A stretch of DNA of 64,000 nt. It comes from Thermoplasmata archaeon. Its GTDB lineage: Archaea > Thermoplasmatota > Thermoplasmata > RBG-16-68-12 > SOIM01. Under the pieces are notes generated by a model. It had not been told where the DNA came from and searched no databases. It saw only the letters and a program-made list of their open reading frames with translations. The translations under genes were made by a program, and so were the position numbers. Shown here piece after piece: positions 14,220 to 26,633 of this stretch; the first letter of the stretch is position 1; the number at the start of each line of letters is the position of its first letter. The stretch is taken from positions 72,578-136,577 of the forward strand of contig JAGLME010000004.1 of the NCBI GenBank assembly GCA_023140195.1, read 5' to 3'.

Positions 14220-15752
14220 CTAACCGAGCAACGCGGCCGCCGCATCCTGAGCAAACCTGATTATTGGCTCAGCAAGCAGGCCGGTGATCACGATCCCAAT
14301 CGTCGCAAGTAACACGGCGATGTAAAGACCAGTTGGCGCCTTCACCTTCGTCTCATCCGGTCCTTCCAGTATGTACATGTACTTGATCACCCGAGCGTAA
14401 TAGTACAAGGAGATAGCACTGTTCAGCACACCAGCAACCGCCAACCATACGAACCAATCCCCGGCGTTCACCGCAGAAGAGAACAGAACGAACTTGCTGA
14501 AGAATCCTCCCAACGGCGGAATACCGGCCAACGCTAGAAGTAGCACCATCATGCAGAACGCAACAATGGGCATCCGTTTGTACAGTCCTTTGTAGTCATT
14601 GAGGTTATCACCTATCTTCGCCATCGAGGTCAAAGCAACGACCAAGAACGCCCCGCCCGTCATTAAAGCGTGGGTGAGCATGTGGTAAAGACCGCCTGCG
14701 AGACCGTATTGGGCAGTGCTAAGAGTCGCTGGATCAACTGCCAAAGTGCCCACACAGACGGCGATCAAGACGTACCCCGCCTGCGCGATGCTGGAATATG
14801 CCAACATCCTCTTCAAATCTGTTTGGACAATAGCTAAAACATTGCCTACGACCATGGTGACAACTGCGAGGACCGCGACAAGGAAAACCCATTCCATTCT
14901 CGCAGCAATCAGCCCCAACAGGAATATCTTGAAGAACGCCGCGAAACCGCCTTTCTTTGAACCGGCAGCAAGGAAGGCAGATATCGTCGTGGGACTGCCT
15001 TGATAAACGTCGGGTGCCCACATGTGGAACGGGACGACCGCTATCTTGAACCCGAAGCCAGCAATCAGAAGAACAATCCCCAAGATGATCGGGATGGTCA
15101 TTCCTTCCATGGTCAGGCCAACGGCCAGTGCGTCAGAGATCCCAGCGAGGTCGGTAGTAGCTCCACCGGCAAATGCTGTTACACCATAAATGATCGAGAT
15201 GCCGAACAGAGCGATGGCGGACGAAACCGCACCTATCAAGAAGAACTTCAATCCAGCTTCCGCGGATGCCTTGTCCTTCCTCTGGAACGCCGCCAAGGCG
15301 TATGTGGATATGCTAGCTAACTCAAATGAGAGATATAACACGAACAAATCCGTCGCAGATGCGATGAGCATCATCCCGACCAGGGCCAGCAGCATCAGTG
15401 AGAAGTATTCCGCCCTGTATTTCTCCTCCTTGTCGATGTACGAGATGGACCCGATGGTGACCAGGATCCCAACGAAGATGAAGATCATGTACAGGAACAG
15501 AGAGAACGAATCCACCTTGATCTTCAGATCTGAGAAGTACACGTCAACAGGGGAAGACCACAGATCCAGACCCATCGCGCTCGTGAAGGAGAGCCCGGCC
15601 ATGTCCGCGACCAAGAACAAAGCAACGATCAACCCGACGAGCGTCAAGTAGGCGTAATACCTCCTCTGGCTCTTCACGAAGACGCTCAATATCATTATCG
15701 CAAAGGAGAACGCTAGAAGGATGAATATCGGGGACAGGACTGCGTATGTCAT
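14220..15752 (-). CDS. nuoN: Complex I-like subunit N
   Basis: LYLSFELASISTYALAAF, VPFHMWAPDVYQGSPTTISAFLAAGSKKGGFA, Lys-containing antiporter-type helices; start MTYAV. Confidence 0.93.
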   Translation of the reverse strand: MTYAVLSPIFILLAFSFAIMILSVFVKSQRRYYAYLTLVGLIVALFLVADMAGLSFTSAMGLDLWSSPVDVYFSDLKIKVDSFSLFLYMIFIFVGILVTIGSISYIDKEEKYRAEYFSLMLLALVGMMLIASATDLFVLYLSFELASISTYALAAFQRKDKASAEAGLKFFLIGAVSSAIALFGISIIYGVTAFAGGATTDLAGISDALAVGLTMEGMTIPIILGIVLLIAGFGFKIAVVPFHMWAPDVYQGSPTTISAFLAAGSKKGGFAAFFKIFLLGLIAARMEWVFLVAVLAVVTMVVGNVLAIVQTDLKRMLAYSSIAQAGYVLIAVCVGTLAVDPATLSTAQYGLAGGLYHMLTHALMTGGAFLVVALTSMAKIGDNLNDYKGLYKRMPIVAFCMMVLLLALAGIPPLGGFFSKFVLFSSAVNAGDWFVWLAVAGVLNSAISLYYYARVIKYMYILEGPDETKVKAPTGLYIAVLLATIGIVITGLLAEPIIRFAQDAAAALLG

Positions 15753-17230
15753 AAGGCGGCCACCCACTCGAATATCTTATCCATGAGTAGAATCGGAAGG
15801 ATGCCGAAGAGGACGAATGTGAATGTCAGCACGGCCAACGGAACGGTCTCGAAGGGCCTGAGGTCCTTCGGATCCTCCACCATCTCATTGTACGGACCGA
15901 AGATGGACCTTTGCATGGCGAACAGGTAATATCCAGCCGTCAACGCGACAGAGATTATCGGGAAGAATATCCACAGGCCGAACGCCTCCCAGGTTCCCAC
16001 GAAGACGCTCAGCTCCGCTACGAACCCGACCAGACCAGGTAAGCCTAAAGACGCTAGGAACGCCACCATCATGAACCCTGCTGTCTTTGGCACCTTTGGA
16101 GCAATCCCCCCTAACTCAGATATGTTCCTGGTTCCAAGGTTGTGTCCAACAGAACCTGCGATCATGAACAACGCTGCTGAGATGAGGCCGTGAGCAAACA
16201 GCTGGAATATCGCACCCGCCATTCCAATCTGGCTTCCACCCAGGGCCCAGGTCGAGATCCCCAACATCACTATGCCCATGTGGCTGATGCTGGAGAAGGC
16301 GATCATCCTCTTCAGGTCGTCCTGAGCAAGGCAGACGAACGCGCCGTACACCATGCTTATTACACCAATGACCCCGAACATCACCCAGACCCAGTCGGAC
16401 ACCGAATCGAACATCTGGACGTTGAACCTTATGAGACCGTAGCCGCCCATCTTCAGCAAAACGCCGGCAAGCAGAACGGACCCCGCGGTAGGCGCTTCGA
16501 CGTGCGCATCAGGTAACCACGTATGCACTGGCACCATCGGTAACTTGGTCCCGAACCCGAACATCATGACGATGAACAGCAGGTCCTGAGAAGCAGCCCC
16601 TATCGGATTGTTCTCGATGAAAGCGACCATGCTGAAGGTGTGGGGGTCGGAGGAGAACCAGAACGCGAAAATCCCTATCAGCACCAAAATGCTGGCCGCC
16701 TGGGTGAAAAGGAAGAACTTGATGGCCGCATACTTCTTGTTGGGACCGCCCCAGATGGCGATCAGGAAGTACATCGGAACAAGACCGACCTCCCAGAACA
16801 TGAAGAAGAGGAAGGAATCGAGAGAGACGAACACCCCGATGATGGTCGTCTGCATGAACAGAAGCATGGCGTTGAATTCCCTGTGGCGATGGGTCTCATC
16901 CCACGAATGAATCAGGGCCAGTGTAACCAAAAGAGATGTCAGGAAGACCAGTACTGCAGAAAGGGCGTCCGCACCGATGTGGTAGTTTATGCCCACCTGC
17001 GGAATCCATTCGGCATTCTCGACCGCAAAGAAATCGCCTTCCTGGGTAAGATCGACGAAGTCGGTTAGAACGCCCAGAATGAGCATCGTGGACAGTATCA
17101 GCGGTATGATGGACATGACCACGGCCACTATCTTCGTGTCCCTGTTCTTCAGTGGTAGAATGTAAACGAGTAGGGCTCCGACTATCGGGAAGACGAGGAT
17201 GAGCGATATCAAATGGATCTCAAGCGCCAT
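15749..17230 (-). CDS. nuoM: Complex I-like subunit M, second copy
   Basis: FWEVGLVPMYFLIAIWGGPNKKYAAIKFFLFT, PVHTWLPDAHVEAPTAGSVLLAGVLLKMGGYG. Confidence 0.95.
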   Translation of the reverse strand: MALEIHLISLILVFPIVGALLVYILPLKNRDTKIVAVVMSIIPLILSTMLILGVLTDFVDLTQEGDFFAVENAEWIPQVGINYHIGADALSAVLVFLTSLLVTLALIHSWDETHRHREFNAMLLFMQTTIIGVFVSLDSFLFFMFWEVGLVPMYFLIAIWGGPNKKYAAIKFFLFTQAASILVLIGIFAFWFSSDPHTFSMVAFIENNPIGAASQDLLFIVMMFGFGTKLPMVPVHTWLPDAHVEAPTAGSVLLAGVLLKMGGYGLIRFNVQMFDSVSDWVWVMFGVIGVISMVYGAFVCLAQDDLKRMIAFSSISHMGIVMLGISTWALGGSQIGMAGAIFQLFAHGLISAALFMIAGSVGHNLGTRNISELGGIAPKVPKTAGFMMVAFLASLGLPGLVGFVAELSVFVGTWEAFGLWIFFPIISVALTAGYYLFAMQRSIFGPYNEMVEDPKDLRPFETVPLAVLTFTFVLFGILPILLMDKIFEWVAAL

Positions 17231-17233
17231 TTA

Positions 17234-18760
17234 TCAGATACCTCCCAGTAATGTTGACAGCCCCTCGGCATACGGTCCGATGAATTGTACCACCGGAGCC
17301 GGATAAAGTCCGAAGAATATGATGAAGAACATTAGAATTGCCAGAGGAACCAGTTCATACCCGGTCACATCCCTTACCTCACCCAAGGATTCGTTGAACT
17401 TACCGAACAGCACCTTGTGCATCGTCCAGATGTAATAAGCCCCTGTGATGATAATGGCCAGCAAGGGAATGATGAGATACTTCCCGAAGGTCCCGAAAGC
17501 CCCCACGAAGACCATGAACTCGCTGACGAAGGATGCCAGCCCCGGAAGTCCTAAGGAGGCGAAGAAGCCCAGCATGAGTATCAGGGAGAACTTGGGCATC
17601 TTGTTGATGAGACCTGTGAGCTTTGGTATTTCCCTGGTGTGACAGGCCCTTTTGGCGACCCCGGCCAACATGAACAACACCGCGGTTATCAGCCCGTGGG
17701 TGAACATCTGGTATATGCCGCCCATGATACCGATGGTCGAAAGGCTGGCGGCACCCAGCAGGACGAATCCCATATGGCTCACGCTGGAATAGGCGATCAA
17801 TCTCTTCAGGTCCGTCTGAGCTAAACACACGAACGCGGCGTAAACCATGCTCACGATCCCGAATGAAGCGAGGACCCACCACAGCTCAACGGCAGCTAAC
17901 GGGAACATGGTCAATCCAATTCGGAACAAGCCGTAACCGCCCATCTTCAGCAGCAAGCCGGCAAGTATGACCGAGCCGGCGGTCGGGGCCTCGACGTGCG
18001 CATCAGGGAGCCAAGTGTGGAACGGCACCATGGGCATCTTGACCCCGAATCCGAAGAACATGGCAATGAAGACCGGCATTTGAAATGCAGCGCCCAGATA
18101 TGTCGGGTTCTGCCCAGCCTCGTTGGCGAGCACGATCAGGTTGAAGGTGTTCCCACCAGTCAGATTGGGTGACGCCGTGAAGTACAAGGCGAATATCCCC
18201 AGCAACATTATGATGCTGCCCACGTGGGTGTAGATAAGGAACTTGATAGCGGCATAGTGTTTGTTCGGGCCTCCCCATATCCCGATGAGGAAGTACATTG
18301 GTATCAGCACGAACTCCCAGAAGATGAAGAACAGGAAAAGGTCCAGCGAGACGAAGACGCCGGTGATCGCCAGGTCCATCAGCAGCAACAGAGCGAAGAA
18401 CTCCTTGGTCCTCTTCCCTTCCTTCCAAGAGAAGACTATCCCCAAAGCCACCAGCAGATGCGTGAGCAAGATGAGCGGGATCGAGAGCCCGTCAACGCCC
18501 AGGGTGTAGCTTATACCCAGAGTCGGGACCCAGTCGGCGTTCTCGTAGGCCTTGAAACTGCCAGTGACAGGATCTCCGACGAGAGCAAAGGGGATCTCCC
18601 AGACGAAAGCAAAGACCAGAATGAACGAGATGAGAAGGTTTACCAGAGACGCGATGAGACAAATCCACTTCGCCTTGGGGCTGTCCTTGGGGAGAACGAG
18701 TGTGATAATGGTCCCGACCAGTGGGACGAGCAACATCAGGGAAAGCAAAGGCACGTCCAT
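17234..18760 (-). CDS. nuoM: Complex I-like subunit M, first copy
   Basis: FWEFVLIPMYFLIGIWGGPNKHYAAIKFLIYT, PFHTWLPDAHVEAPTAGSVILAGLLLKMGGYG. Confidence 0.95.
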   Translation of the reverse strand: MDVPLLSLMLLVPLVGTIITLVLPKDSPKAKWICLIASLVNLLISFILVFAFVWEIPFALVGDPVTGSFKAYENADWVPTLGISYTLGVDGLSIPLILLTHLLVALGIVFSWKEGKRTKEFFALLLLMDLAITGVFVSLDLFLFFIFWEFVLIPMYFLIGIWGGPNKHYAAIKFLIYTHVGSIIMLLGIFALYFTASPNLTGGNTFNLIVLANEAGQNPTYLGAAFQMPVFIAMFFGFGVKMPMVPFHTWLPDAHVEAPTAGSVILAGLLLKMGGYGLFRIGLTMFPLAAVELWWVLASFGIVSMVYAAFVCLAQTDLKRLIAYSSVSHMGFVLLGAASLSTIGIMGGIYQMFTHGLITAVLFMLAGVAKRACHTREIPKLTGLINKMPKFSLILMLGFFASLGLPGLASFVSEFMVFVGAFGTFGKYLIIPLLAIIITGAYYIWTMHKVLFGKFNESLGEVRDVTGYELVPLAILMFFIIFFGLYPAPVVQFIGPYAEGLSTLLGGI

Positions 18761-18761
18761 T

Positions 18762-20768
18762 CTACCCTCCCGTAATCTTGATGTAGATCCAGGCGAAGGC
18801 GATCACGAAGCATATGCCGAGCACGACAGCCGCCAGGTAACCCTGAATGTTCCCGGTCTGGCTCCTCCTGAGACCTCTGCCGCCTCTCACGATCCCCCGA
18901 CTGATTCCGTTGACAGCGCCGTCAATCCCTTTCTGGTCGAAGAACCCGCTGGCCTTGCCCACAAGCAAACTGCCTTTGGCGGTTCCGTTCACAACACCGT
19001 CGATGACCCTGCGGTCGAAGAAGTCCGCGACCTTGGCGAAGCCATAGGCGATCTTCAGCCCGAACATCCTGTAGGCCCAGTCCATTCCGTATCTCTTCAC
19101 GAGCATGGTGTGGATGGCCTTCGTTCCCTTGGATGAGACGAAGATGGTGGATGAGATGGTTCGCTTATTGTAGATCAAGTATGCCAGCCCGATACCCAGA
19201 CCGGCCATGCCGATGGAGAGGAAGGTCAACGGATTGGTGAACACGTGGATGATCTCCTCCACGGCGTGTCCATGCGCCTGCTCAAAGAAAACCAGCTGAC
19301 CGAACCCGTCCATGAAGAATGTGAGAATCCCGGATATGAGCGCGAACGCAGCGAGAATAATCAGCGGAATTGTCATGGATTTGGGGGATTTGTGAGGCTC
19401 GCCGGGCGATCTTTTCTCTCCAGTGAACGTGAAGAACCACAGCCTGAACATATAGAATGCGGTCATGAACGCGGTGATGATGCCGAGTATCCAGATGATG
19501 AGGAAGGAGGGGTCATTCATTCCTGCTTCGAACGCGACTTCAAGAATACCATCCTTGCTCCAGAACCCGCTTAATGGTGGAATGCCGGCGATGGAGAGAG
19601 CACCTATGAGCATTGCGAACGAGGTTATCTTCATGTGTTTGTGCAGGCCGCCCATTTGCCGCATGTCGTTGGTGCCGACTGAGTGAATAACGCTACCGCT
19701 ACCCAGGAACAATAAGGCCTTGAAGAATGCATGGTTCACCAGGTGGAAGATGGCGAAGGTGTAGCCCAGAGCCTCGTGTCCGTGGTGGTAGAGGTACGCA
19801 CCCGCGCCTAATCCGAGCATCATGTAGCCTATCTGGCTGATCGTAGAATACGCAAGCACCCTCTTGATGTCCATCGCTACCAGCGCCATGGTTGCGGCAA
19901 AGAAGGCCGTGAAGCCGCCTATGACAGCTACAACTAAAGTCGCATCAGGAGAATTGGCAATAAGCGGGAAGCTGCGAGCTGTCAGATAGACGCCCGCCTT
20001 TACCATCGTTGCAGCGTGAATGAGAGCACTCACCGTAGTGGGACCTTCCATGGCATCCGGTAGCCAGACGTGTAACGGGAACTGTGCGGATTTACCAACG
20101 GCCCCGCCAAAAAGAAGCAGTGGTATAATCGTAACAAGATGTACGGGTATGTCTCCTGCGTGCTCCTGTATATGGATTATGTTGAAAGTGTCAAACGTGA
20201 CAAAGAGAACGATGATGCCAATCAAGAACAGTATGTCCCCGATCCTGGTGACCAAGAACGCCTTCTTCGCGGCACTGGCCGCCTCGGGCTTCTTGTACCA
20301 GAATCCGATGAGCAGGTAAGAGCAGACGCCCATTACCTCCCAGAAGATCAGCAGCTGGAAGAAGTTGTTAGCGCTGACGGTTCCGAGCATTCCAGCGGTG
20401 AACAGAGCTATCTCGGCATAGTAGCGGGGCTTCCCTTCCTCATCGTGCATGTAACCCGCCGAATAGATGGCTATCAGAAGACACAGGAAAGAGACCAGCA
20501 GGAGCAATAACGCGCTGAGGTTGTCTATCAGCAGTCCGATCTCGATGCCGGGTATCCACTCGAACGCGATGATCTCTACTTGCACTCCGCCGCCCAAAGC
20601 ACCCTGACCCAGGACATCAATGAACAGATAAAGGGAAACGACAAACGAGAACCCGATAGCACCAATGGTGAAGGGCGCACCGCCCTCCCACACCTTCTTG
20701 CCGAACAGTATGGATAAGAGGAATGCCACCAGGGGCGAGATGATGATCAGCCAAGCATACTCGTACAG
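18762..20768 (-). CDS. nuoL: Complex I-like subunit L; probable CTG start at 20768 (first canonical start, GTG at 20729, truncates TM1)
   Basis: FWEVMGVCSYLLIGFWY, FPLHVWLPDAMEGPTTVSALIHAATMVKAGVYL; upstream in-frame (L)YEYAWLIIISPLVAFLLSILFGKK matches the usual NuoL N-terminus. Confidence 0.92.
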   Translation of the reverse strand: MYEYAWLIIISPLVAFLLSILFGKKVWEGGAPFTIGAIGFSFVVSLYLFIDVLGQGALGGGVQVEIIAFEWIPGIEIGLLIDNLSALLLLLVSFLCLLIAIYSAGYMHDEEGKPRYYAEIALFTAGMLGTVSANNFFQLLIFWEVMGVCSYLLIGFWYKKPEAASAAKKAFLVTRIGDILFLIGIIVLFVTFDTFNIIHIQEHAGDIPVHLVTIIPLLLFGGAVGKSAQFPLHVWLPDAMEGPTTVSALIHAATMVKAGVYLTARSFPLIANSPDATLVVAVIGGFTAFFAATMALVAMDIKRVLAYSTISQIGYMMLGLGAGAYLYHHGHEALGYTFAIFHLVNHAFFKALLFLGSGSVIHSVGTNDMRQMGGLHKHMKITSFAMLIGALSIAGIPPLSGFWSKDGILEVAFEAGMNDPSFLIIWILGIITAFMTAFYMFRLWFFTFTGEKRSPGEPHKSPKSMTIPLIILAAFALISGILTFFMDGFGQLVFFEQAHGHAVEEIIHVFTNPLTFLSIGMAGLGIGLAYLIYNKRTISSTIFVSSKGTKAIHTMLVKRYGMDWAYRMFGLKIAYGFAKVADFFDRRVIDGVVNGTAKGSLLVGKASGFFDQKGIDGAVNGISRGIVRGGRGLRRSQTGNIQGYLAAVVLGICFVIAFAWIYIKITGG

Positions 20769-20769
20769 A

Positions 20770-21081
20770 TTACCACCTCAACATCTTGCCTTTGTCCAGA
20801 TCGATTGTGTTGAACGTCCGGTAGAAGACGATGAACATCGCAAGTCCTATAGCCGCCTCGGCAGCGGCAACCGCAATGGCGAAAAGGGCGAAGACCTGGC
20901 CGGCAGCATTTCCCCCGTTCTCGGCGTACGAAGAGAATGCCACGAAATTCATCACGGCTGCGTTCAGGATTATCTCCACGGACATCAGCACGACGATGGC
21001 GTTCTTCCTCCTCAGGATGCCGTAGATGCCTATGGCGAACAGGACGGCGGAAAGCACCAGCTCATATTCGAGAGCTATCAA
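20770..21081 (-). CDS. nuoK: Complex I-like subunit K
   Basis: GILRRKNAIVVLMSVEIILNAAVMNFVAF with the conserved TM Glu. Confidence 0.95.
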   Translation of the reverse strand: MIALEYELVLSAVLFAIGIYGILRRKNAIVVLMSVEIILNAAVMNFVAFSSYAENGGNAAGQVFALFAIAVAAAEAAIGLAMFIVFYRTFNTIDLDKGKMLRW

Positions 21082-21326
21082 TCCTTCACCTCCTTCCTCG
21101 CCAGATAGATGCCGCCCAGCACCGACGCGGACAGCAGCATTCCGAGGATGACCAAAGCAAAAGAGTAATCGTCAAACAGGGAGTGGGCCACATCTTCCAC
21201 CGGGACCTCGTTGATATCGGTCGTCTCCCATGCTTCGGATGAAATCAGAGACAAAGCCATCATGTAACCTAGAAGGACGGCGGCCGTCACCACTATGATC
21301 TGCGTTGCCTCACTATTCTCCTTCAT
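21078..21326 (-). CDS. nuoJ: Complex I-like subunit J, C-terminal part (split gene)
   Basis: Second half of NuoJ topology: soluble linker ending in SLFDDYSFALVILGMLLSASVLGGIYLARKE. Confidence 0.8.
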   Translation of the reverse strand: MKENSEATQIIVVTAAVLLGYMMALSLISSEAWETTDINEVPVEDVAHSLFDDYSFALVILGMLLSASVLGGIYLARKEVKD

Positions 21327-21585
21327 CTGGCTCCTCCATTATCCGCCTTCTGGTTAGAACGATACCGAAGATGAACAGCACCGGCACCGCACCCGCATAG
21401 ACGAGGATCTGAACGACGGCCACGAACTCGGACCGCAGAAGTATGTAGATCCCACCCATGGTGATCAGGGTGATAGCCAGCCAGAATGCGCTGTGCACGA
21501 GCTTCTTTGATGTGACGACCAAGATGCTGGCGACAATCTCAACGACAGAAAGCGTAATGAACATCACAAGGTCCCATTCAACCAT
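21313..21585 (-). CDS. nuoJ: Complex I-like subunit J, N-terminal part (split gene)
   Basis: VVTSKKLVHSAFWLAITLITMGGIYILLRSEFVAVVQILVYAGAVPVLFIFGIVLT. Confidence 0.9.
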   Translation of the reverse strand: MVEWDLVMFITLSVVEIVASILVVTSKKLVHSAFWLAITLITMGGIYILLRSEFVAVVQILVYAGAVPVLFIFGIVLTRRRIMEEPDEGE

Positions 21586-22293
21586 TCAGATCTCCTCCAT
21601 TGTCAACGATCCAGGCTTGCAAACGTCGCAACATGTGCTGCATCCGATGCACTTCGAGTAGTCGAATTCCGGGATCTCAATCGGCTTGTCCTTCCTCATC
21701 TTGGGCCCGGGGATCATGGTAATGCATTGGGTAGGACACTCGTTGAAGCAGCGCTTGCACCCGATGCAGGTCTCCACATCCAGCTTGGGATTCTCCAGTA
21801 TCTTGTTAATGAGCTTCTTGCTGGGTCCTCCTTCGGTCTTGACCTGCTCGGCAGAATAGATCAAGGCGTCCCTCTCGAACTCTGTGAGCTCTACCAATAT
21901 GGTCTGGGTCCAGGCGTCGGTGGGGCAGTACTCGCCGCAGTTCCCGCAGAACAGGCATCTTCCGATGTCCACGCCGGGTCGGTGAATTCTGTTCTTCTTT
22001 TCCGACATGTGGGATCGGCGTGGTCCCTTGTAGTTCTCGTCGACCTCGATGTCCTCCATCGTGATGCACTGGTTGGGGCACACCCTGGAACACAGCCTGC
22101 AGCCGATGCATTTCAGCCAATCGATCTCGTGATGGCCTCGGAAGTTCTCCCGCAGAGCTTCCCATTTGTCCCTTTCCTTTTCGAGGGGATAAAGAATGGT
22201 CGACGGCTTCCAGAGGGCCTGGCGCATCTCGCGTAGGGTGAACCTCATGGGCTGAATGATCCATCCCTTGAGACGCCTCTTCTTCTTGGCCAT
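21586..22293 (-). CDS. nuoI: Complex I-like subunit I with C-terminal extension carrying two additional [4Fe-4S] motifs
   Basis: CIGCRLCSRVCPNQC, CLFCGNCGEYCPTDA, CIGCKRCFNECPTQC, CIGCSTCCDVCKPGS in one 235-aa ORF; ATG overlaps the nuoH stop. Confidence 0.92.
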   Translation of the reverse strand: MAKKKRRLKGWIIQPMRFTLREMRQALWKPSTILYPLEKERDKWEALRENFRGHHEIDWLKCIGCRLCSRVCPNQCITMEDIEVDENYKGPRRSHMSEKKNRIHRPGVDIGRCLFCGNCGEYCPTDAWTQTILVELTEFERDALIYSAEQVKTEGGPSKKLINKILENPKLDVETCIGCKRCFNECPTQCITMIPGPKMRKDKPIEIPEFDYSKCIGCSTCCDVCKPGSLTMEEI

Positions 22294-23435
22294 CAGAACC
22301 ACCCTACCCATTTGAAAGCAGCCGCGATCACAATAGAGATTATAGCGATGGGAATCAACCAGTTCCAGCCGATCCTCACGATCTGATCGATACGGGACCT
22401 CGGGAAGGACCAGGTCGCCCAAACGATGATGACGAAGACGATGTAGGATTTGATGATGAACCACAGCTCTCCCGGCAGCACAGGGCCGGACCAGCCGCCT
22501 AAGAATAATATCGTGATCAAAGCCGCCCCCGCATACGTCCTAACCCACTTGGACACAAAAACCAGTCCGAACCTCATGCCTGAGTACTCGGTGAGCCAGC
22601 CCTCAACGAGCTCGGCCTCAGCCTCGGGGAGGTCGAAGGGCAGCCTCTCAAGCTCCGCGAACAGAGCCACCATGAACACGATAACAGCAGGGAACAGGGG
22701 AATGATGTACCAGTTCTCAACGCCAAGGACCGACGTCTGCTGCTGGGCATGCACTATCTCAATGGGATTCAGAGAGCCGGAAAGGAGTATGACGCCGATG
22801 ACGGAGAGGATCAACGGTATCTCATAGCTGAGCATCAATGCGGCGCCTCGCAGTCCGCCGATCAAAGTGAACTTGTTATTACTGGACCAGCCAGCCAGCA
22901 CGACCGCCAAGGGCGCGATAGCCAATATTGCCAGAATGAATATGAGACCGGCGTTGATGTTGGCGACATAGAAAGTCTCACTGAAGGGAATAGCAACAAA
23001 GGCCAGTATGGAGGTGGTGGCGATTATGGCGGGTGCAATGTCGTACATCCATTTGTCCGCGTTCTTTGGCGTGATCAGCTCTTTCTGAATGAGCTTCATA
23101 CCGTCGGCAAGGTTCTGCAGGAATCCAGTGCCCTTGTGGGTCTTCTTCCAGGGTCCTGGGAGCATGATGCCACGGCGGTCGTGAATCCTACCGTACATCT
23201 TCCTCTCGATCCACATGATGATGAAGAGGTTGATTATGGAAACAAAGACCATCACCGCCGCTCCACCAATGAATATGGCAACAAGGTTCAGCACGTTGAC
23301 CGACATCAGCCAGTCGGCGAAATCAGAAAGAGGACCGATCCACTGACCGAAGAAGTTGAGGATGGCTGCAACTATACCCATCAGGAACTCGCCGATCGCG
23401 TAGCTGATGTTGTACAGGTTTATCCACGAGCTCAT
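22293..23435 (-). CDS. nuoH: Complex I-like subunit H
   Basis: WIERKMYGRIHDRRG, AELERLPFDLPEAEAELVEGWLTEYSGMRFGL. Confidence 0.96.
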   Translation of the reverse strand: MSSWINLYNISYAIGEFLMGIVAAILNFFGQWIGPLSDFADWLMSVNVLNLVAIFIGGAAVMVFVSIINLFIIMWIERKMYGRIHDRRGIMLPGPWKKTHKGTGFLQNLADGMKLIQKELITPKNADKWMYDIAPAIIATTSILAFVAIPFSETFYVANINAGLIFILAILAIAPLAVVLAGWSSNNKFTLIGGLRGAALMLSYEIPLILSVIGVILLSGSLNPIEIVHAQQQTSVLGVENWYIIPLFPAVIVFMVALFAELERLPFDLPEAEAELVEGWLTEYSGMRFGLVFVSKWVRTYAGAALITILFLGGWSGPVLPGELWFIIKSYIVFVIIVWATWSFPRSRIDQIVRIGWNWLIPIAIISIVIAAAFKWVGWF

Positions 23436-24511
23436 TTGTCAGTGTCTCCTATGCAGATATCCACGCTTCCCATTATCGCGAGCAGGTCCGCAACCGAGGT
23501 GCCTTTCAACATTACTGGCACCGCCCTCATGATGGCGAATATGGGGCTTCTGATCTTCAGCCTGTACGGGGACTCCCCACCTTGACCGATGACGTATATC
23601 AGCGCCTCTCCCCTGGAGTCCTCGGTCCTTCTGAAGCCTTGTCCAGTTGGTCTTAAGGGAGCCTTGACCCTCACCGGGCCATCGGGAATCTTCTTGAGGG
23701 CGTCACGAATTATCCTGCAGCTCTCCCTCATCTCTCCCATTCTCACGGCATAGCGCGAGAAGACGTCACCTTCCTTCCCCACCTGAACTTCCCAGTCCAG
23801 CTCGTCGTACACCTCGTAGGGGTCGTGCGTCCTCATGTCGATCGGGCAGTTGCTCCCCCTCAGGGCGGGTCCGGTGACGCCCAGGTCCAAAGCGTCCTCC
23901 TTGCTCAGGACCCCCACTCCCATCGTCCTCATCCGGAAGAGCTTGTTATCGTCAAACAGCTGCTTGTACTGCTCCAGCTTCTTCTCGAAGTAGTCCAGTT
24001 CCTTGAAGCACCTGTCCGGGAACCCAGCGGGCATGTCGTTCCTGACACCGCCGATTCGGGGGTAGTTCTGGTTCATCCTGGCGCCGGTCAGCCATTGAAG
24101 CATATCAAGGAAGTGCTCCCTCTCCCTCATCGAGTACAGGTATGCCGAGAACATACCCAGGTCCGGGGCGAAGGCCGCCAGCCACATGAGGTGGGAAGCG
24201 ACCCTCTGGAGTTCCAGTGCGATGACCCTGAGATACTTCGCCCTATCTGGAACCTCGAGCCCCATCATCTCCTCGACGGAGATGCAGTAGGCATGTGACC
24301 AAGTCAAGGAAGAAACGTAGCAGAGCCTGTCCATCAGCGGGATTATCTGGTTGTAGTCCCTCTTCTCGCACAGCTTCTCCACACCTCTGTGCAGGTATCC
24401 CAGAACGGGTATGGATTCAACCACGATCTCACCATCCACACGTACCTTCAGGTTCCAGAGCCCATGGTTCATGGGATGTTGCGGACCCATATTTATCCAC
24501 ATATCACTCAT
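23432..24511 (-). CDS. nuoD: Complex I-like 49 kDa subunit D
   Basis: NMGPQHPMNHGLWNLKVRVDGE, LGYLHRGVEKL, RSPIFAIMRAV. Confidence 0.96.
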   Translation of the reverse strand: MSDMWINMGPQHPMNHGLWNLKVRVDGEIVVESIPVLGYLHRGVEKLCEKRDYNQIIPLMDRLCYVSSLTWSHAYCISVEEMMGLEVPDRAKYLRVIALELQRVASHLMWLAAFAPDLGMFSAYLYSMREREHFLDMLQWLTGARMNQNYPRIGGVRNDMPAGFPDRCFKELDYFEKKLEQYKQLFDDNKLFRMRTMGVGVLSKEDALDLGVTGPALRGSNCPIDMRTHDPYEVYDELDWEVQVGKEGDVFSRYAVRMGEMRESCRIIRDALKKIPDGPVRVKAPLRPTGQGFRRTEDSRGEALIYVIGQGGESPYRLKIRSPIFAIMRAVPVMLKGTSVADLLAIMGSVDICIGDTDK

Positions 24512-24953
24512 CGGATTGACCCTCGAAGTCCTTTCTCAACGGATAATAGTCAACATCATCTGGTAGTAGAATGCGCCTGAGATCTGGATGACCTTCGAAT
24601 GTGATGCCCATCATGTCGTAGGCCTCTCTCTCGGGGAAGTCGGCCGCCCTCCAGATCTCGCTCAAGGAAGCGATCTTGGGGTCATCCTTAGGGACCTTGA
24701 CGTGCAGCTCGACCATGTATTCCTCGAGATAGGATGTGAGGTGGTAGACGCACTCAAAATCCTCAGGCCAGTCCAGGGCTGTGACAAGGTTGAGATGTTC
24801 GCAGTGAAGCTCGTCCCTCAAGAACTTACAGAACGGAAAGATGGAATCCCTGGGGACCGAGACCCTGACAAGATCCTCTCTTGGGAACACGATGTCGCTG
24901 ACTAGGTCTCCGAAATGTTCCCTGAGCGCTCCCGCAACTTCAGTCCCCTTCAT
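24504..24953 (-). CDS. nuoC: Complex I-like 30 kDa subunit C
   Basis: DWPEDFECVYHLTSY, WRAADFPEREAYDMMGITFEGHPDLRRILLPDD. Confidence 0.95.
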   Translation of the reverse strand: MKGTEVAGALREHFGDLVSDIVFPREDLVRVSVPRDSIFPFCKFLRDELHCEHLNLVTALDWPEDFECVYHLTSYLEEYMVELHVKVPKDDPKIASLSEIWRAADFPEREAYDMMGITFEGHPDLRRILLPDDVDYYPLRKDFEGQSDE

Positions 24954-25155
24954 CCTCACAAGCCCCGATGATTGTCCGCTCTGAAAGGTTCGATGAATAC
25001 TCGTTTTGATATATGTTCATTTTGTCTGTCGGGGCAGGTTTGGATGCTGAATATGTCGGTGTAATAATGTCTCATGTCTGATTATCGACATCTAAAGACT
25101 GGCTATCGACGCAAACAAAAATGCATAGTGTGATGTAAGAGTGTCCAAAAGACAT

Positions 25156-25710: not shown

Positions 25711-26073
25711 ATGCTCCTGGAAGACTATCTGCCCGTACTTGTCTTCGCGATAATATGCATCATTTTTCCGCCTGTCACCTACTTCCTAAACCGACTGTTC
25801 CGCCCGACGAAGAAGACACCTTTGAAGGACTCCACCTACGAATGCGGGGAGGTCCCGATAGGGACGGCGCACATACAATTCACCTTCCAGTACTACATGT
25901 ACGCGATACTCTTCGTGGCATTTGATGTAGTGGTCGTCTTCCTTGTTCTCTGGGCGCTGGTGTTCGACAGTAGCATGAGCTACGTGGCGCTCGCATCCGT
26001 GGCCCTCTTCGTCCTCCTGGTCGGAACGGCAGTGGGAGTCTCCCTCAAGAAAGAGAAAGAGGTCTTGATTTGA
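25711..26073 (+). CDS. nuoA: Complex I-like subunit A
   Basis: KTPLKDSTYECGEVPIGTAHIQFTFQYYMYAILFVAFDVVVVFLVLWA. Confidence 0.95.
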   Translation: MLLEDYLPVLVFAIICIIFPPVTYFLNRLFRPTKKTPLKDSTYECGEVPIGTAHIQFTFQYYMYAILFVAFDVVVVFLVLWALVFDSSMSYVALASVALFVLLVGTAVGVSLKKEKEVLI

Positions 26074-26633
26074 ACGAGCAGAAGACGGGCGTCGCCGGGA
26101 TCAGCTCCGAAGAGCTCATGGGATGGATCGGGAACGGTTTTGGGAAGACGATGGAGAAGACAAGGCTGAAGGATTTCGTTAACTTCCTGACCGAGAGGCT
26201 GTGGAACTGGAGCAGGAGGAACAGCCTGTGGCCATTGCACTGGGGGTTGATGTGCTGTTCCATAGAGATGGCGGCTGCTTTCTCTCCCAGGTATGATATT
26301 GAGAGGTTTGGAGTTCTGTTCAGGTCGACCCCAAGACAGGTTGACATCCTCCTTGTTAACGGTCCGGTGAGCCGCAAGGTGGCTCCGTCAATAAGAAGAT
26401 TGTACGAGCAGATTCCCGAGCCCAAATGGGTGATCGCCATGGGGGAGTGCGCCATATGCGGAGGCCCGTACTACGATTCCTACAACATACTGGAAGGCGT
26501 GGAAAAAGTGGTACCAGTTGACGTCTACATACCAGGGTGCCCGGTAAGGCCTGAAGCCCTGATAGATGGCTTCATCCAGCTGAGGGAGAAGATAAAGAAA
26601 GAGAAGAAGGGGATGTTCCTTCAGCCGAAGTGA
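26070..26633 (+). CDS. nuoB: Complex I-like subunit B (N2 cluster)
   Basis: WPLHWGLMCCSIEMAA, MGECAICGGPYYDSYN, VDVYIPGCPVRPEAL; overlaps the nuoA stop. Confidence 0.96.
   Translation: MNEQKTGVAGISSEELMGWIGNGFGKTMEKTRLKDFVNFLTERLWNWSRRNSLWPLHWGLMCCSIEMAAAFSPRYDIERFGVLFRSTPRQVDILLVNGPVSRKVAPSIRRLYEQIPEPKWVIAMGECAICGGPYYDSYNILEGVEKVVPVDVYIPGCPVRPEALIDGFIQLREKIKKEKKGMFLQPK

Follow-up and report, generated by a model that had tools for sequence, protein, structure and literature searches.

The nuo locus of the analysed window, a 64,000-nucleotide stretch of a Thermoplasmata archaeon contig, very probably encodes a four-antiporter ('2M') complex I that lacks the NADH-input module and is strapped by a lengthened lateral helix of NuoL. 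The locus is a well-supported case of the published 2M complex I, known here from its genes and from the predicted structure of NuoL. We propose the following scenario for its origin: (i) in the ancestor of the order, nuoM was duplicated in tandem, (ii) a 26-codon piece of the nuoL lateral helix was also duplicated in tandem, (iii) the 26 extra residues of alpha helix, adding about 39 angstrom, would let NuoL strap an L-M-M-N array with its last transmembrane helix still anchored at the inner end, and (iv) the enlarged complex would translocate about five protons in each catalytic cycle in place of four.

The nuo operon lies on the minus strand in the order N-M2-M1-L-K-J-J-I-H-D-C, and nuoA and nuoB are divergent at 25711-26633 (Table 1). 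The other membrane and Q-module subunits, A-D, H-K and N, were all found at the locus. The nuoJ gene is broken into two overlapping ORFs (window positions 21078-21585), one corresponding to the N-terminal and the other to the C-terminal half of the Pfam family. No match to the NuoF model TIGR01959 was found across the entire 2.98-Mb assembly (94.9% complete); therefore the electron donor is not NADH via the usual module, and the complex I of this genome is devoid of the usual NADH-input module.

Table 1. Features of the nuo locus and of the NuoL lateral helix (window coordinates)
Feature	Coordinates	Strand	Description	Evidence
nuoN	14220..15767	-	515 aa, fourth antiporter-like subunit	TIGR01770 368 bits
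nuoM2	15749..17230	-	493 aa; four conserved channel residues kept	TIGR01972 488.0 bits
nuoM1	17234..18760	-	508 aa; four conserved channel residues E, K, K, E kept	TIGR01972 530.9 bits
nuoL	18762..20729	-	655 aa; antiporter-like subunit with lengthened C-terminal lateral helix	NCBIfam TIGR01974 586 bits, NF005141 599 bits
NuoL last transmembrane helix (predicted)	18771..18848	-	residues 628-653	AlphaFold2 model
NuoL lateral helix HL (predicted, continuous)	18858..19094	-	residues 546-624	AlphaFold2 model, DSSP H546-624
NuoL lateral helix repeat copy 2	18867..18944	-	residues 596-621; FFDQKGIDGAVNGISRGIVRGGRGLR	self-comparison
NuoL lateral helix repeat copy 1	18945..19022	-	residues 570-595; FFDRRVIDGVVNGTAKGSLLVGKASG	self-comparison; 26-residue gap in one-nuoM relatives
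nuoK	20770..21081	-		Pfam PF00420
nuoJ, C-terminal part	21078..21326	-	separate ORF	Pfam PF00499 positions 73-146, below curated cut-off
nuoJ, N-terminal part	21313..21585	-	separate ORF	Pfam PF00499 positions 2-68
nuoI	21586..22293	-	iron-sulfur subunit; internal ATG start assumed	ORF and sequence, counterparts in related operons
nuoH	22293..23435	-		ORF; counterparts in related operons
nuoD	23432..24511	-		ORF; counterparts in related operons
nuoC	24504..24959	-		Pfam PF00329
nuoA	25711..26073	+	opposite strand	Pfam PF00507
nuoB	26070..26633	+	opposite strand	ORF; counterparts in related operons

The first-pass annotation had proposed a 26-residue tandem duplication in NuoL, and this was borne out with exact coordinates: the two copies are offset by exactly 78 nt, or 26 codons, and share 11 of 26 residues and 45 of 78 bases. 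Their BLOSUM62 score of 56 corresponds to p = 5e-6 in a shuffle test (200,000 shuffles of one copy; mean -22.5, sd 13.3). The best 26-residue self-match of the entire protein is the one at offset 26, with 12 identities at residue 566, and the runner-up has 8. In the NuoL alignment, close relatives within the class have only one unit, and a gap of exactly 26 columns takes the place of the other; at its LR end, copy 2 corresponds to the single unit of the one-nuoM relatives. The tandem duplication is thereby confirmed. The same annotation took a single IDGxVNG unit before LRRxQTG to be the usual state of NuoL, correctly so, as the one-unit form is present in 105 of the 158 intact loci that were scored in a survey including named bacteria and archaea, and Chloroflexota.

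In the AlphaFold2 model of NuoL, folded as a lone chain with an alignment of this window and the fetched loci only, both repeat copies sit within one unbroken lateral helix of 79 residues. The location claimed for the duplicated segment is thus supported, with low confidence for the second half of the helix: pLDDT is only 46-57 across residues 590-628, as may be expected of a strap modelled apart from its partner subunits. The lateral helix modelled for a one-nuoM Thermoplasmata relative (L113) spans H539-590, or 52 residues, and that of the window NuoL is 27 residues longer.

Helix span, taken as the distance between a conserved tyrosine at residue 553 and the glutamine of the QTG motif at residue 624, equals 71 in the window. 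The same span was observed in every genome of the order readable here (families f1 to f6), and the intact operons of these genomes are all L-M-M-N. Each intact L-M-N locus sampled from the phylum outside the order has one nuoM and a span of 45 or 46. Families f41 and f49, which may be Marine Group II-like lineages, were considered as further two-nuoM archaea and rejected, the loci sampled from them having one nuoM and a span of 45. Thus the expected co-occurrence of the extension with a second nuoM among relatives is perfect within the phylum, where both changes share the stem of one order. In the NuoL tree built with the helix columns removed, the order forms one clade (support 99) nested among short-helix relatives. 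Mean identity between genomes is 58% for copy 1 against copy 1 and 56% for copy 2 against copy 2, versus 37-38% for copy 1 against copy 2 (38% between the copies of one protein). These values point to one old event with no homogenisation, and gene conversion between the two units was rejected on the same grounds.

The two NuoM proteins, both above the TIGR01972 cut-off of 263.8 bits, are 48% identical to each other. Both retain the Glu of TM5, the Lys of TM7 and of TM8, and the Glu of TM12 (E. coli positions 144, 234, 265, and 407; these are the channel residues); since the charged residues are kept in both copies, one more proton per cycle would be expected if, as we infer, both operate in one complex. 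In the NuoM tree, the NuoM1 sequences of the order form one clade and the NuoM2 sequences its sister (support 100 each), the two being joined at 95, and thus the nuoM duplication, like the helix duplication, maps to the stem of the order. Judged from the sequence trees, the two duplications fall on the same ancestral branch. Horizontal acquisition of the second NuoM was rejected for the order on the basis of this sister relationship, which does not hold in Chloroflexota. In the two-nuoM loci of the latter phylum (L071, L194-L212), the second NuoM belongs to a different NuoM clade from the first, carries WSPDG or WSPTG in place of WLPDA, and is devoid of the TM7 lysine (K to L in 13 of 13 proteins of the tree set); its role in pumping may be different.

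The survey extends the association beyond the phylum. A long helix was found in all 36 two-nuoM loci and a short one in 105 of 122 one-nuoM loci, the remaining 17 being one-nuoM loci with a long helix (Fisher p = 6e-23; the loci are not independent). Spans in intact L-M-N and L-M-M-N loci are either 45-47 or 70-76, with none between 47 and 70. On the NuoL tree, the 2M label requires at least 4 changes on supported branches. A tree-aware pairing test gave 4 usable pairs, about 2.6 of them concordant and 0 discordant, too few for significance; the little power of this test follows from the few independent origins.

The 17 exceptions (L036, L037, L048, L051, L052, L054, L055, L062, L067, L069, L083, L090, L214, L218, L226, L229, and L230) have extensions of +25 to +30. 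Sixteen are bacterial, from Ignavibacteria, KSB1, Poribacteria, Zixibacteria, Riflebacteria, Elusimicrobia, Bacillota, Vicinamibacteraceae, and several Chloroflexota, and one is a Njordarchaeota MAG. A whole-genome count of NuoM at a threshold of E 1e-80, covering 12 of the 17 (L036 to L090), revealed no spare nuoM: each NuoM either is adjacent to a NuoL of its own or is the sole NuoM of the genome. A hidden second nuoM elsewhere in the genome is therefore rejected for these 12, which contain no orphan NuoM. Thus the long helix can occur in the absence of a second nuoM gene, and the helix duplication was rejected as a diagnostic of one. The first-pass annotation had regarded the duplication as a signature of a four-antiporter complex. 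The part of this claim that stood is that every two-nuoM locus sampled has the long helix; the part that fell is sufficiency. One-nuoM loci with the duplication occur in distant organisms and were not found among the relatives. This earlier reading is therefore largely right for the lineage of the window and only partly supported in general, where the relation runs in one direction.

Loci with fewer antiporters add a further step to the series. Two-antiporter L-N operons of the same phylum (L135, L140, and L179; K-L-N-B-C-D-H-I) have a span of 18, and their NuoL helix falls about 27 residues short of the length found in L-M-N loci; spans of 18-19 were measured in two partial loci (L184, L191). 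An operon of like layout that is L-M-N (L139) has a span of 46. Two L-M loci (L134 and L137, from G059) have spans of 43-45 and no nuoN detected nearby; they do not fit the pattern simply, and their nuoN may lie elsewhere. Two, three, and four antiporters are thus accompanied by spans of about 18, 45, and 71. Each added antiporter comes with about 26-27 residues of helix, or about 40 angstrom, so that the lateral helix behaves like a ruler, with about 26 residues per internal antiporter. A stronger version, in which the lateral helix and not the number of nuoM genes sets the antiporter count and the one-nuoM long-helix complexes would use the same NuoM twice, is a minority reading that we consider unlikely; it rests on the other survey loci and not on the window.

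Alternatively, the extension could be a tolerated insertion independent of antiporter number, its match to the second nuoM of the order being a coincidence of one ancestral branch. The 17 one-nuoM loci with a long helix, among them a chromosome assembled as one contig (L090) and operons complete from A to N (L036, L048), favor such an insertion, as does the fact that the co-gain in the phylum is a single event. Against it, none of the 36 two-nuoM loci has a short helix over at least 4 separate 2M placements, and helix lengths fall into discrete classes of 18-19, 43-47, and 70-76 with none between, the two-antiporter operons being shorter by one unit. We thus regard a coincidental insertion as quite improbable.

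Two other explanations fare worse. NuoM1 and NuoM2 could be alternative isoforms, of which an ordinary three-antiporter complex would contain either one or the other, and their sequence divergence is such as isoforms might show, but this leaves unexplained both the side-by-side position of the nuoM genes within the operon, seen in every readable member of the order, and the matching extension of NuoL; we hold it to be very unlikely. That the extra segment reaches beyond complex I, for instance to a neighbour in a supercomplex, instead of contacting the second NuoM could explain the long helices of one-nuoM bacteria, yet it is hardly credible for an extension that is mid-helix rather than terminal, repeats the native unit, and is an invariant +26 across the order. 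The four-antiporter complex strapped by the lengthened NuoL helix remains our preferred explanation, and the occurrence of a nuoM duplication and a matching 26-codon nuoL duplication on the same branch supports the view that complex I can gain pumps singly, provided that its strap lengthens as well.

Several elements of this design are already known. Passages citing Chadwick et al. (2018, ISME J 12:2668), who described the 2M complex I as having an extra nuoM and an extension of the NuoL lateral helix, place it in Nitrospira, with a lateral-helix extension of 26 residues (PMC9040806), in heterotrophic marine Thaumarchaeota (PMC7300363), and in Chloroflexi (PMC7117926). One more proton per cycle of the 2M complex is a hypothesis in this literature (PMC9040806, PMC7300363). 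The window locus resembles these systems in having the second nuoM in the operon, and its extension matches the Nitrospira form, as portrayed in the passage of PMC9040806, in 26-residue size and in position. Two points set it apart: its extension can be recognised as a tandem repeat of the native unit, and its NuoM pair originated by duplication inside the order, whereas the sampled Chloroflexota pairs come from different NuoM clades.

Four genomes belonging to the window's order (G023, G027, G030, and G036; family f4) have AMO/PmoA-family (PF02461) matches, and the window's own genome has none. The archaeal genomes matched by the amoA/pmoA model of Diamond et al. (2022; PMC9038741) fell in Ca. 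Angelarchaeales (GTDB RBG-16-68-12). Like that group, the window's order thus includes genomes with CuMMO-family matches, which makes a strong but indirect case that the two are the same. The complex I of Ca. Angelarchaeales was described there as having no E, F, and G and a duplicated subunit M, with ferredoxin suggested as the electron donor; the duplicated M of the order is therefore known at the gene level, while the NuoL helix extension goes unmentioned in the main text. The texts consulted describe neither the duplicated helix unit of this order nor the placement of both duplications on one branch, and they contain no broad list of loci that combine a long helix with one nuoM.

Comparison with solved structures places the window NuoL within the canonical membrane arm (E. 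coli NuoL, T. thermophilus Nqo12): the fold and the lateral helix are the same, and Foldseek matched the model to many solved NuoL/ND5 chains with a probability of 1.00. The difference is the second helix unit, absent from the listed sequence matches of NuoL to solved chains. In Complex_I_3 of Ca. Manganitrophaceae (Yu et al. 2022; PMC9040806), a lateral-helix extension of 26 residues likewise accompanies extra pumping subunits, but it resides in an MrpD2 subunit that replaces NuoL, and the pumping subunits are five. The insertion is also present in two Ca. Manganitrophaceae complexes of canonical gene content (PMC9040806), which resemble the one-nuoM long-helix bacteria surveyed here. Such exceptions are more widespread than that case and make the idea of the strap as a ruler directly testable.
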